Of a stretch of DNA of 64,000 bases, positions 24,142 through 27,467 are shown piece by piece. Origin of the DNA: Caldithrix abyssi DSM 13497 (GTDB lineage: Bacteria; Calditrichota; Calditrichia; Calditrichales; Calditrichaceae); the NCBI RefSeq assembly GCF_001886815.1, contig NZ_CP018099.1:3284501-3348500 (forward strand). Reading direction: 5' to 3'. The position numbers and the translations under genes were made by a program. The notes below the pieces were generated by a model. The model made no database searches and was not told where the DNA came from. It was given only the letters and a program-made list of their open reading frames with translations. Every line of letters starts with the position of its first letter. The first letter of the stretch is position 1.

Positions 24142-24199
24142 CCTCCCTCTCTCCCAGACTTTTATTCTGGGACAGGGGAAATGAGGGGGTGAGGGCTAT
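24142..24199. repeat. CCCAGA-hairpin repeat, copy 2
   Basis: CCCAGA (24153-24158) faces TCTGGG (24166-24171), followed by a G-rich tail ending GGTGAGGGCTA. The stop codon of the uracil-DNA glycosylase gene (24162-24164) lies in the hairpin loop. Confidence 0.65.
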
Positions 24200-24962
24200 C
24201 CGATTCCCCTGTCCGGGCGTCTAAAAAACGTTTAATCTTTTTCAGGTCTTGCCAGGCTTTTTGTTTTAAAGCGGGATTGCGCAGCAAAGCCGCCGGATGG
24301 TAGGTCACAATAACCGGAATATTTTGATACTGATGGTCGCCCTCTCGCATCACGCCTAAGGGCTGTTCAAGTCTTAGTAATGACTGAGCGGCAAACCTGC
24401 CCAGCGCCACAATCAATTTCGGTTTGATCATCTGGATTTGTTTAATCAAATACGGTTCGCAACGGGCAATTTCTTCCGGCCTCGGATCGCGGTTATCCGG
24501 AGGCCGACACTTTAACACATTGGCGATGTACACGTTGTCGCGGCTCAGCCCAATGGAAGCGAACATCTTATCTAACAATTTGCCCGCCGCGCCCACAAAA
24601 GGCAGGCCCTGCTCGTCTTCTTCTCTGCCGGGCGCCTCGCCCACAAACATCACCTCGGCCTGCGCGTTTCCGTAACCAAACACAAAGTTCTTGCGCGTTT
24701 TGTGCAGTTCACATTGCTGGCAGTCTCTGATCTCTTCGTAAAAGGCCTGTAACTCCGGACTGGTTTGTCTGTATTGCACCGCGCGTCGGGAAATGTTTTG
24801 TGTTTGCGCATGTCCCTGCCGCCCCTTTTGCACGGCAGGACCGGAAGGTTCCGCAATGCTCACCCTTGCCACGGGATGGTCTAAAATGAGTTCGGAATCG
24901 TAAACCTGCCGATACCACCTAAAAAATTGTTCGATGTTTTCGATCAGCTCTTTTTCGTTCAT
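24162..24962 (-). CDS. udg: family 4 uracil-DNA glycosylase (4Fe-4S)
   Basis: Product of 266 aa. Excises uracil from DNA, the usual enzyme type in thermophiles. Iron-sulfur ligands Cys81, Cys84, Cys152 and Cys168 (CQQCELHKTR; LKCRPPDNRDPRPEE ... RC). Active-site motif GEAPGREEDEQGLPFVGAAG (108-127) and the C-terminal HPAALLRNP. An N-terminal extension of about 70 aa precedes the core, as in phage SPO1-polymerase-related members. The last 11 or so residues are read from a dispersed hairpin repeat and are probably not functional. The start overlaps the coaB stop by 4 nt (ATGA). Confidence 0.93.
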   Translation of the reverse strand: MNEKELIENIEQFFRWYRQVYDSELILDHPVARVSIAEPSGPAVQKGRQGHAQTQNISRRAVQYRQTSPELQAFYEEIRDCQQCELHKTRKNFVFGYGNAQAEVMFVGEAPGREEDEQGLPFVGAAGKLLDKMFASIGLSRDNVYIANVLKCRPPDNRDPRPEEIARCEPYLIKQIQMIKPKLIVALGRFAAQSLLRLEQPLGVMREGDHQYQNIPVIVTYHPAALLRNPALKQKAWQDLKKIKRFLDARTGESDSPHPLISPVPE

Positions 24963-26020
24963 ACATCCTCTTTTAAGCGGGCAATGGTTTCCATTATTCT
25001 CAAACTTAATTGAAATTTATTCATTAACGGCCAATCCTGTATCTCCCCGCTTCTGCTCAACAGCTGCACTTTATTCGTTTCCTGACCAAAAGCCGCGCCT
25101 TTGTGTTTCGGATTGTTGATAATGATACAATCCAGCCCTTTACGTTGCAACTTTTCTTTTGAGTGTTCGATCTCTTTCTCCGTTTCCACGGAAAAGCCAA
25201 TTAACAATTGCTGTTTCTTCCTGCGGTTGAGCTCAGTCAGGATATCTGTGGTTCTGGTTAACGACAGTTGCAGGCCTGGTTTTTCGCTCTTCTTTTTTAT
25301 TTTTTGCGGACTGAAGGTAAGCGGCTTAAAGTCGGCAATGGCTGCCGCGCCAATGTAAACATCGCTTTGATCAAAATGTTTAAACACTGCTTCGGCCATT
25401 TGCTGCGCGGAACGCACATGAATGCATGATAAATATTTAGGTACGTTTAAGGCCGATGGCCCCAGAATCAAAGTAACTTCGGCCCCGCAAACAAAGGCCG
25501 CTCTGGCCAGAGCCAGGCCCATTTTTCCGGACGAGCGATTGGTGATAAATCGAACCGGATCGATGTCTTCGGCAGTGGGGCCGCCGGTGATTAACACGCG
25601 TTTGCCCGTTAAAGGCCTGGCGTGATTCAAATAGTAAACAAAATCGATCAAAGAAGGCACATCGCCCATGCGATAACCCAGCACGCTATGATCGCTGAGC
25701 GGCGTCCACAGTACGTCGTTTACGGCGCGAGGATACTCTACCGCCCTTTCTGCCGGAATAATAGGAAAAACGATATTTCCTTGCAAAGCATCGGCGGCAA
25801 AATCCAGAACGTTCCAGAGCAAAACCGTTGTCCATTCTTCATCAACGGGCGTGTCCGAATTCTGCAAGCGTATTTTACCGTGCAGGCGATTGAATATCCC
25901 GGCAACATGCGCATCTTTTGAGGAAAGCCGCACTTCCCATCCCTGTTTTAGCAGCGCGTCCAGCATAGGAAGGGCGAAAACGAGCTGTTGATCGGTTAAA
26001 TCTTTTACAAAAACTTTCAT
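24959..26020 (-). CDS. coaB: phosphopantothenate-cysteine ligase (CoaB) with degenerate CoaC-like N-terminus
   Basis: Product of 353 aa. The C-terminal CoaB domain (about 139-353) is complete: ITGGPTAEDIDPVRFITN, RSSGKMG, AAAIADFKP (225-233), KIKKKSEKPGL (240-250), IGFSVETE and IINNPKHKGAAFG. It ligates cysteine to 4'-phosphopantothenate with nucleotide. Residues 1-135 occupy the place of the CoaC flavoprotein decarboxylase but lack its PASANT and PAMN motifs and its N-terminal flavin loop. The boundary (VLGYRMGDVPSLIDF) still resembles the CoaC-CoaB linker. So decarboxylation should need another protein. It follows gmk by one base and overlaps udg. Confidence 0.85.
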   Translation of the reverse strand: MKVFVKDLTDQQLVFALPMLDALLKQGWEVRLSSKDAHVAGIFNRLHGKIRLQNSDTPVDEEWTTVLLWNVLDFAADALQGNIVFPIIPAERAVEYPRAVNDVLWTPLSDHSVLGYRMGDVPSLIDFVYYLNHARPLTGKRVLITGGPTAEDIDPVRFITNRSSGKMGLALARAAFVCGAEVTLILGPSALNVPKYLSCIHVRSAQQMAEAVFKHFDQSDVYIGAAAIADFKPLTFSPQKIKKKSEKPGLQLSLTRTTDILTELNRRKKQQLLIGFSVETEKEIEHSKEKLQRKGLDCIIINNPKHKGAAFGQETNKVQLLSRSGEIQDWPLMNKFQLSLRIMETIARLKEDV

Positions 26021-26021
26021 G

Positions 26022-26582
26022 CTATTTTTCAGCCAGAATGATCGTTTCTATCTCTTTGATGGTTTTCTCTAAATCATCGTTGATCACAATGTAATCGAAT
26101 TTTTCGGCCTGTTGATACTCGTACGGCAGGCGTGCCAGTCGTTTACGAATGGTTTCTTCGGTTTCTGTTTTTCGCTTTTTCAGGCGCTCGATCAGGACCT
26201 GTTCGGATGGCGGTTTTAAAAAGATCAAAATGGCCTGCGGATAATGTTTCTTAATGGACAATGCGCCATTCACATCAATATCAAACAAAACGGTTTTGCC
26301 TTCCGCCGTATGGCGTTCGACCACCTCTTTTAAGGTCCCGTAGTAATTTCCGTGCACCTGTTCGTATTCCAGAAATTTGCCCTGCTCAATATACTTTTCA
26401 AATGTCTCTTTGTCTAAAAAGTAATAATCCACACCATCCTTTTCATTGGGGCGGATGGGCCGCGTTGTGGCCGAAACGGAAATCACCGTTTCCGGATGTC
26501 TGGCGTTCAATGTTTTTACAATGGTCGTTTTACCGCCGCCCGATGGCGCTGAAAAAACAATGTACGGCGACTTAAACTTCAT
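26022..26582 (-). CDS. gmk: guanylate kinase
   Basis: Product of 186 aa, normal length. Phosphorylates GMP to GDP with ATP. P-loop SAPSGGGKTT at 11-20, GMP-binding VSATTRPIRPNEKDGVDYYF, DIDVNGALSIK and lid RLKKRKTETEETIRKRL. Ribosome site AAGGAG 6 nt before the ATG. It lies between yicC and coaB, the standard gene neighbourhood, but the usual rpoZ is missing between gmk and coaB. Confidence 0.97.
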   Translation of the reverse strand: MKFKSPYIVFSAPSGGGKTTIVKTLNARHPETVISVSATTRPIRPNEKDGVDYYFLDKETFEKYIEQGKFLEYEQVHGNYYGTLKEVVERHTAEGKTVLFDIDVNGALSIKKHYPQAILIFLKPPSEQVLIERLKKRKTETEETIRKRLARLPYEYQQAEKFDYIVINDDLEKTIKEIETIILAEK

Positions 26583-26591
26583 CTCTGCTCC

Positions 26592-27467
26592 TTATTCGAT
26601 GTTCTGAACCTGTTCGCGTAATTTTTCGATCTCTTCTTTAATGGTTATTACTTTGTGCGAAATTTCCAGCATGGTGGTTTTGGAGTTAATGGTGTTAGCC
26701 TCGCGGTGCATCTCCTGCAAAATAAAATTCAGCCGCTTGCCAATGTCTCCATCATTTTCAACGGTCTGGTTGAACAATCCGATATGGCTTTTTAATCGTA
26801 CGCACTCTTCGGTAATATCCACGCGATCGGACAGGATGGCCAGCTCCTGTTCCATTCTGCTGCGGTCAATGTTTTGTTCTTCGATTAACGACTGCACATT
26901 GCGATACAGGCGTTCAAATTCGGCCTTTACATTTTGCGGGGCGATTTCTTTTATTTCATCCACCAGCTCTTCAATTTTACGCATCCGCTGCCGCATGTCC
27001 CGCAGCAGATTGGCGCCCTCCTGTTCGCGCATGTGTATAAATTCTTGCGCCGCTTTTTCCAGCGCGCCTAAAAGCAGCGGCCGAATCTGGGTTTCGACTA
27101 CCGATTCCAGATCCATGGCAAAAAGCTCCGGAAACATCAGCAAATGGGTTAATTTCAATTCATCGGCCAGCTTAAACCGTTCGCGCAGGGCGTTGAGTTG
27201 TTTTACCTTTTTTTCGGCTGCCTGCCAGTCCACAAACAGTTCGCTGCCGTTTTGCTGGCTTTGCTCCACATTAACATAAACGAATATTTTACCGCGAATT
27301 ACCTTATTTTTTAGAAATTCACGCACCTGAATTTCCTCGGAGCTCAATTCTTTAGGCAAACGAACCGACAAATCCAGGAAGCGGTTGTTCACGCCTTTGA
27401 TTTCCACTGAAACCATAAAGTATTCGTTGCTGAGCACGGCCTTGCCGTATCCGGTCATACTACGCAT
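26592..27467 (-). CDS. yicC: YicC-family endoribonuclease
   Basis: Product of 291 aa. It begins with the family signature RSMTGYGKAV and ends with MLEISHKVITIKEEIEKLREQVQNIE; the middle contains SVEIKGVNNRFLDLSVRLP and a long helical region. YicC/YloC proteins are RNases affecting sRNA and mRNA turnover; the activity here is assigned by family. It leads the yicC-gmk-coaB-udg operon. GGAG lies about 14 nt before the ATG. Confidence 0.92.
   Translation of the reverse strand: MRSMTGYGKAVLSNEYFMVSVEIKGVNNRFLDLSVRLPKELSSEEIQVREFLKNKVIRGKIFVYVNVEQSQQNGSELFVDWQAAEKKVKQLNALRERFKLADELKLTHLLMFPELFAMDLESVVETQIRPLLLGALEKAAQEFIHMREQEGANLLRDMRQRMRKIEELVDEIKEIAPQNVKAEFERLYRNVQSLIEEQNIDRSRMEQELAILSDRVDITEECVRLKSHIGLFNQTVENDGDIGKRLNFILQEMHREANTINSKTTMLEISHKVITIKEEIEKLREQVQNIE

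Follow-up and report, generated by a model that had tools for sequence, protein, structure and literature searches.

The gene of Caldithrix abyssi DSM 13497 that occupies the place of coaBC encodes an intact phosphopantothenate-cysteine ligase (CoaB) preceded by a domain that carries none of the motifs of the flavin-dependent decarboxylase CoaC. Which protein then decarboxylates 4'-phosphopantothenoylcysteine, what is this N-terminal domain and why has it been kept? The gene was studied in a window of 64,000 nucleotides (NZ_CP018099.1, positions 3,284,501 to 3,348,500, forward strand) and in the complete genome, a single contig of 4,978,541 bp (Table 1). The answer that we consider likely is that the gene is a coaBC orthologue at its original locus, the CoaC half of which was displaced by a separate eukaryote-type decarboxylase (PPCDC) and kept as a folded but dead domain. 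The pathway itself is ordinary; what is real here is the displacement of an enzyme across an entire order, with a fossil domain left in place.

Table 1 Features of the coaB locus (window coordinates) and the stand-alone CoaC gene (genome coordinates)
Feature	Coordinates	Strand	Length	Basis
coaB (phosphopantothenate-cysteine ligase; N-domain non-catalytic and probably derived from CoaC)	24959..26020	(-)	353 aa	
N-domain, residues 1-135, predicted alpha/beta fold of CoaC-like (HFCD) type, lacking CoaC motifs	25616..26020	(-)		
CoaB (DFP) domain, residues 136-353, ligase motifs conserved	24962..25615	(-)		
gmk (guanylate kinase), upstream of coaB	26022..26582	(-)		ORF and gene order
yicC-family gene, upstream of coaB	26592..27467	(-)		ORF and gene order
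Uracil-DNA glycosylase-like gene, downstream of coaB	24162..24962	(-)		ORF and gene order
Stand-alone CoaC (L002/L034)	G000:C1:918830-919372 (918.8-919.4 kb)		181-187 aa by start choice	

The ligase half and its locus

The reading frame opens with an ATG, and its stop shares four bases with the start of the downstream gene. The Pfam DFP (CoaB) domain spans residues 137-320 (E = 6.7e-68) and places the protein in the DFP family. The model of the bifunctional enzyme (TIGR00521, coaBC) scores 213.8 bits, short of its cut-off of 219.7, and its match is confined to model positions 178-391, which correspond to the CoaB half; a bifunctional CoaBC label would be a wrong annotation for this frame. The motifs GPTxExxDPVR, SSGKMG, AAxAD and KIKK are all present in the alignment with E. 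coli CoaB and fall within invariant or near-invariant columns among 20 relatives, which bears out the claim of the sequence-only reading that the ligase motifs are intact. The CoaB half matches the sequences of solved CoaB structures with E values down to 3.4e-54, and the full model aligns with the CoaB structure 1U80 at Z = 27.0 (up to 27.6 for CoaB structures overall). From these features, the protein would act as a ligase with CTP. The catalytic roles of single CoaB residues are presumed, except for that of an arginine in cysteine addition. This conserved arginine is required for that step according to the available part of a structural study (PMC7794376).

Every one of the 40 genomes that the survey covered in the phylum encodes CoaB. 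The short form occurs in 21 of the 21 genomes of the order of C. abyssi (families f1 and f2), and a fused CoaBC in the 19 genomes that represent four further families, none of which has a second CoaC (0/19). Some fused genes are damaged: contig ends truncate those of G021 and G027, some 50 residues are missing from the centre of the G035 CoaC, and in G039 a scaffold gap divides the gene and leaves the CoaC half next to yicC and gmk at 3.77 Mb. The two parts of the G039 gene (L223 and L071) lie far apart on one scaffold, where runs of N interrupt them, which probably reflects a scaffolding error. In the CoaB phylogeny, which omits L071, L072 and L073 and uses 32 of the 58 fused sequences of the wide sample, the 21 short CoaBs form one group (99/97) joined to the fused CoaBs of the Calditrichota (96/90). 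The order yicC-gmk-coaB(C)-udg, in which we take the neighbours to be gmk, a yicC-family gene and a uracil-DNA glycosylase-like gene (udg), is common to short and fused genomes wherever the contig permits. Tree and gene order thus indicate the descent of the gene from a coaBC locus and the vertical inheritance of its CoaB, and argue against the import of CoaB from elsewhere. An annotation or assembly error behind the short CoaB is ruled out by the one-contig genome and the agreement of 20 relatives. Judged by these sequences, the loss of CoaC with a kept N-domain is fixed across the whole bacterial order.

There is no rpoZ between gmk and coaB (window 26020-26022), and the sole omega/Rpb6 match of the genome is at G000:C1:775445-775669; rpoZ is kept between gmk and coaB(C) in L154, L184, L166 and L170.

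The N-terminal domain

Residues 1-135 had been described as standing at the position of CoaC without its motifs or flavin loop, and this description holds. The Flavoprotein family (PF02441) does not match the 353-residue frame even at E <= 10, so that the CoaC half expected of a CoaBC, complete with FMN-site and catalytic motifs, was not found. PASAN/PATAN, PAMN and G[SGC]IAAY are missing from 20 of the 20 N-domains aligned from the order (L070, cut by a contig end, is omitted from the 21; the corresponding fused alignments hold 15 of 19), as is the PxMNxxMW motif of HFCD proteins. The N-domain is about 45 residues shorter than CoaC, varies from 105 to 146 residues among the 20 aligned (the shortest in G019 and G020) and is 12-35 percent identical to the window's copy. 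It has no invariant column, and hence no conserved active-site histidine, vs 49 invariant columns of 218 in CoaB, and the mean fraction of the commonest residue is 0.32 vs 0.63.

Such low conservation, variable length and absence of invariant columns would suit mere debris without a role, tolerated since the deletion of a fused domain is hard. This explanation appears unlikely, given that the fold is predicted with confidence, the domain has been retained across two families and, for both of the close pairs that were usable, the dN/dS interval stays under 1: 0.48 (bootstrap 0.27-0.84) and 0.49 (0.26-0.79), the CoaB half of the same pairs giving 0.21 and 0.09. Six pairs were run, with unsaturated dS in these two and no finite value in three; a third pair (L013/L033) gives 0.29, but with a dS of 2.3. 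By this measure, the N-domain is still under selection. Furthermore, a CoaB without N-domain is possible, since, of the eight genomes searched together with G040, six (the planctomycete Pan216 and most Patescibacteria examined) have CoaB frames of 242-249 aa, too short for such a domain; the remaining two have 279 and 676 aa. A DFP domain in a 676-aa open frame (L159/L163, from the Falkowbacteria genome G047) is possibly another fusion.

AlphaFold2 predicts a confident alpha/beta fold for the N-domain alone (pLDDT 88, pTM 0.84; pLDDT 85 for the whole protein). The top five VIA-align matches of this predicted model are MrsD (Z = 10.6), EpiD (10.3 and 10.2), DpaB (10.0) and SpaF (9.8); HFCD/DpaB proteins range from 9.7 to 10.6 and unrelated Rossmann-like folds reach 9.0. 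M. smegmatis CoaBC and eukaryotic PPCDC are missing from these matches, which does not exclude them. In our mapping of the model, the beta strands and outer helices seem to be kept, with only short helices at the places of both flavin-site motifs. Given its best structural matches, the domain looks like a shrunken CoaC fold without its flavin site. A normal flavin site with shifted motifs, which would have contradicted the sequence-only reading, is not seen in the model. The sequences are less telling: residues 1-135 retrieve chance matches only from the PDB (E = 1.7 and 1.8), and the profile comparison of the N-domain with CoaC gives no usable signal (E = 0.038 and 0.027), though two real CoaC sets, the positive control, reach 3e-43. 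Since this comparison was empty despite the strong control, the probable descent of the N-domain from CoaC is argued from position, locus and predicted fold, not from sequence.

The lack of profile similarity, as well as a Foldseek search of the model that found nothing at E <= 0.001 and returned methyltransferases in its first rows, could also be explained if an unrelated alpha/beta domain had replaced CoaC and no relic were left. We hold this to be very improbable. The locus and the place in the protein are the same as those of CoaC in the sister families, the top HFCD matches cover almost the entire N-domain, and the only profile match, albeit weak, is in register with the start of CoaC. 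Moreover, the full model can be aligned along its residues 1-353 with the complete CoaBC of M. smegmatis, at Z = 26.1 with 321 aligned and an rmsd of 6.0.

Two families have kept the dead domain, and its dN/dS is about 0.5 in two pairs, so it is probably a structural scaffold for CoaB. The M. smegmatis CoaBC (PDB 6TGV) is alike in its two-domain layout, locus and CoaB motifs. The C. abyssi protein differs from it in its shorter N-domain without Flavoprotein match or PASAN/PAMN, and in having its decarboxylase elsewhere. In the M. smegmatis enzyme, the linker touches CoaB as well as CoaC, and the dodecamer is assembled from trimers of CoaC and dimers of CoaB (PMC7794376, in the part available). 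The need for CoaC to hold CoaB together varies by species: in the accessible portion of PMC7770189, the CoaB of M. smegmatis requires stabilisation by its CoaC domain, whereas E. coli CoaB works alone. Here, the scaffold and catalytic roles of CoaC would have been separated by nature and, as the catalytic motifs were lost and the fold retained, the question of CoaC as a scaffold for CoaB becomes directly testable. The role of the domain may be dimerisation, as the sequence-only reading suggested, or another. Among the titles and abstract starts of open-licence PMC articles, none was found that deals with a CoaB carrying a dead CoaC domain.

The predicted stand-alone decarboxylase

A cell with such a CoaB was predicted to have a separate decarboxylase, and the genome search revealed a gene for a stand-alone CoaC. 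Two PF02441 proteins exceed the cut-off in the whole genome, one being UbiX and the other this CoaC. The UbiX-like gene (L001) was rejected as the decarboxylase, given that its NCBIfam assignment is UbiX (204.9 bits against a cut-off of 188), and so was L003, whose match to PF02441 (E = 0.18) was taken as a chance one. The stand-alone CoaC carries the motifs PLSAN and PAMNTRMW; His70, Asn88, Asn121 and Met124, and with them the active-site histidine and PxMNxxMW, are kept in 18 of the 18 stand-alone CoaCs of the order. It matches human PPCDC (1.1e-44, 155 bits) and AtHAL3a (4.7e-37, 130-132 bits), and much more weakly M. smegmatis CoaBC (1.1e-19, 74 bits). These features suggest that it decarboxylates phosphopantothenoylcysteine. 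Homologues 62-100 percent identical to it are present in 18 of the 21 short-CoaB genomes, with a mean column identity of 74 percent across the order; it was not detected in the other three, the completeness of which is 89, 72 and 73 percent. A pantothenate kinase (PF03309, 243.7 bits) and CoaD (TIGR01510, 210.5 bits) are also encoded. According to the available part of the C. abyssi genome paper, in which the word CoaBC does not occur, the cell can make CoA (PMC5317091).

In the favored scenario, a eukaryote-type PPCDC would have been gained before the CoaC half decayed, and the latter would have shed its FMN site, its catalytic motifs and some 45 residues. The CoaB half would now produce 4'-phosphopantothenoylcysteine, the stand-alone flavoprotein would decarboxylate it and the dead half would stay folded, most likely for the stability or assembly of CoaB. 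Alternatively, the N-domain could be a docking and assembly module that forms mixed trimers, or a larger complex, with the stand-alone PPCDC and thereby keeps ligase and decarboxylase in one particle, as in the CoaBC dodecamer. HFCD proteins do build trimers or dodecamers, the M. smegmatis CoaC active site lies between protomers (PMC7794376, in part), yeast PPCDC is a heterotrimer of unequal and partly dead subunits (PMC9604783, in part) and the N-domain has been retained in all 21 genomes of the order. Nevertheless, the stand-alone enzyme has its own His70, Asn121, Met124 and flap, so that residues from a partner are unneeded, and the poor conservation of the N-domain is unlike that of a tight interface with a well-conserved partner; docking is thus a doubtful explanation. 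The yeast proteins Hal3, Vhs3 and Cab3 do provide, in the portion of PMC9604783 at hand, a precedent for HFCD subunits kept without catalytic residues, but each of them feeds a shared active site, whereas the dead domain discussed here sits on the ligase.

The CoaC phylogeny, which omits L071 and L015, takes 14 of the 58 fused sequences of the wide sample and includes two eukaryotic sequences only, groups the stand-alone CoaC with eukaryotic and Patescibacteria PPCDCs (100/100). This clade is kept (100/99) in a tree extended with planctomycetes, again with two eukaryotic sequences (L047, L049 and 12 of 17 fused Calditrichota rows omitted; for L216, 11 percent of the columns are filled). Across the two trees, the clade also takes in one or two planctomycete enzymes, and most of the stand-alone CoaCs sampled from planctomycetes fall outside it. 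The planctomycete CoaCs (L207-L221) form several separate clades, L214 and L220 being of the eukaryote type. A long branch (100/100) divides the stand-alone enzyme from all the fused CoaC domains sampled and excludes that it is the lost CoaC half relocated in the genome. Among planctomycetes, 140 of 149 genomes have a CoaC match, mostly in open frames near 180-260 aa; since stand-alone CoaCs are common there, the separation of the CoaB and CoaC genes is not new in itself. The eukaryote-type PPCDC clade thereby gains additional bacterial members. Searches of the literature on PPCDC in planctomycetes or its horizontal transfer found nothing to the point.

The stand-alone enzyme shares its clade, the histidine and PxMNxxMW with eukaryotic PPCDC and plant HAL3a (PDB 1QZU and 1E20), from which it differs in being bacterial and in its flap, where the Cys of HAL3 enzymes is replaced by Asp, Asp155 in the C. 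abyssi protein, in 18 of 18 Calditrichales sequences. We therefore class it as a HAL3-type PPCDC on the basis of its clade, its active site being altered. AtHAL3a needs its Cys175 for the second half-reaction (PMC9604783, in part), so that activity without it is not self-evident; no paper linking Cys158 to phosphopantothenoylcysteine was found. Speculatively, Asp might substitute for Cys, perhaps as a proton donor, and the change offers a natural test of the Cys requirement in the reductive half-reaction. The 12 stand-alone sequences of the wide sample have Asp in 4 (L084-L087, three of them Calditrichales again) and Cys in 8. At the same position, 15 of the 17 fused CoaCs counted from the Calditrichota (L071 and L015 omitted from 19) have Glu and the other 2 Cys; among the 58 fused sequences of the wide sample, 49 carry Cys and 9 Ser. 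As Glu, Ser, Thr and Asn all occur there in fused CoaCs, Cys is far from universal among them, and its loss is not a peculiarity of the stand-alone enzyme. The sequences with the flap Asp include L002/L034, L035-L051, L084 and L195, and the CoaC of Bacteroidota mostly has Ser.

A second lineage and other split systems

In S. pneumoniae and Mycoplasma iowae, the two steps are also carried by two genes; in M. iowae, four nucleotides separate them, and the available part of the study reports no dead CoaC domain on CoaB (PMC8721197). In C. abyssi, by contrast, the CoaC gene lies far off on the chromosome and is not of the same clade as the phylum's fused CoaCs.

The same pairing of CoaB and a stand-alone CoaC is found in a Neomarinimicrobiota-labelled MAG (G040, L084) and in G055. 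Their CoaB frames (389 and 385 aa) are devoid of CoaC motifs, and their stand-alone CoaCs are close to those of the Calditrichales. In the phylum of G040, a DFP match was found in 75 and a CoaC match in 71 of the 149 genomes examined; 69 of these 71 CoaC matches sit in long frames (394-491 aa). The PATAN-type motif is kept in 28 of the 28 fused loci read, and the flap position of these is Ser in 14, Thr in 12, Cys in 1 and Asn in 1, the column after the flap being partly misaligned. When G040 and G055 are added to the CoaB tree, from which 11 of the 28 fused loci are omitted since the cut motif is missing, both join a group (89/94) made up of the short forms plus four fused CoaBs, a topology equally compatible with one or two origins. 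A more elaborate scenario, in which the eukaryote-type PPCDC entered two lineages, the dead half docks the newcomer in a dodecamer-like CoaB/PPCDC particle and the flap Asp replaces Cys, seems to us distinctly improbable. In both L084 and L195, the gene after the HAL3-type CoaC is presumably a purine nucleoside phosphorylase-like one.
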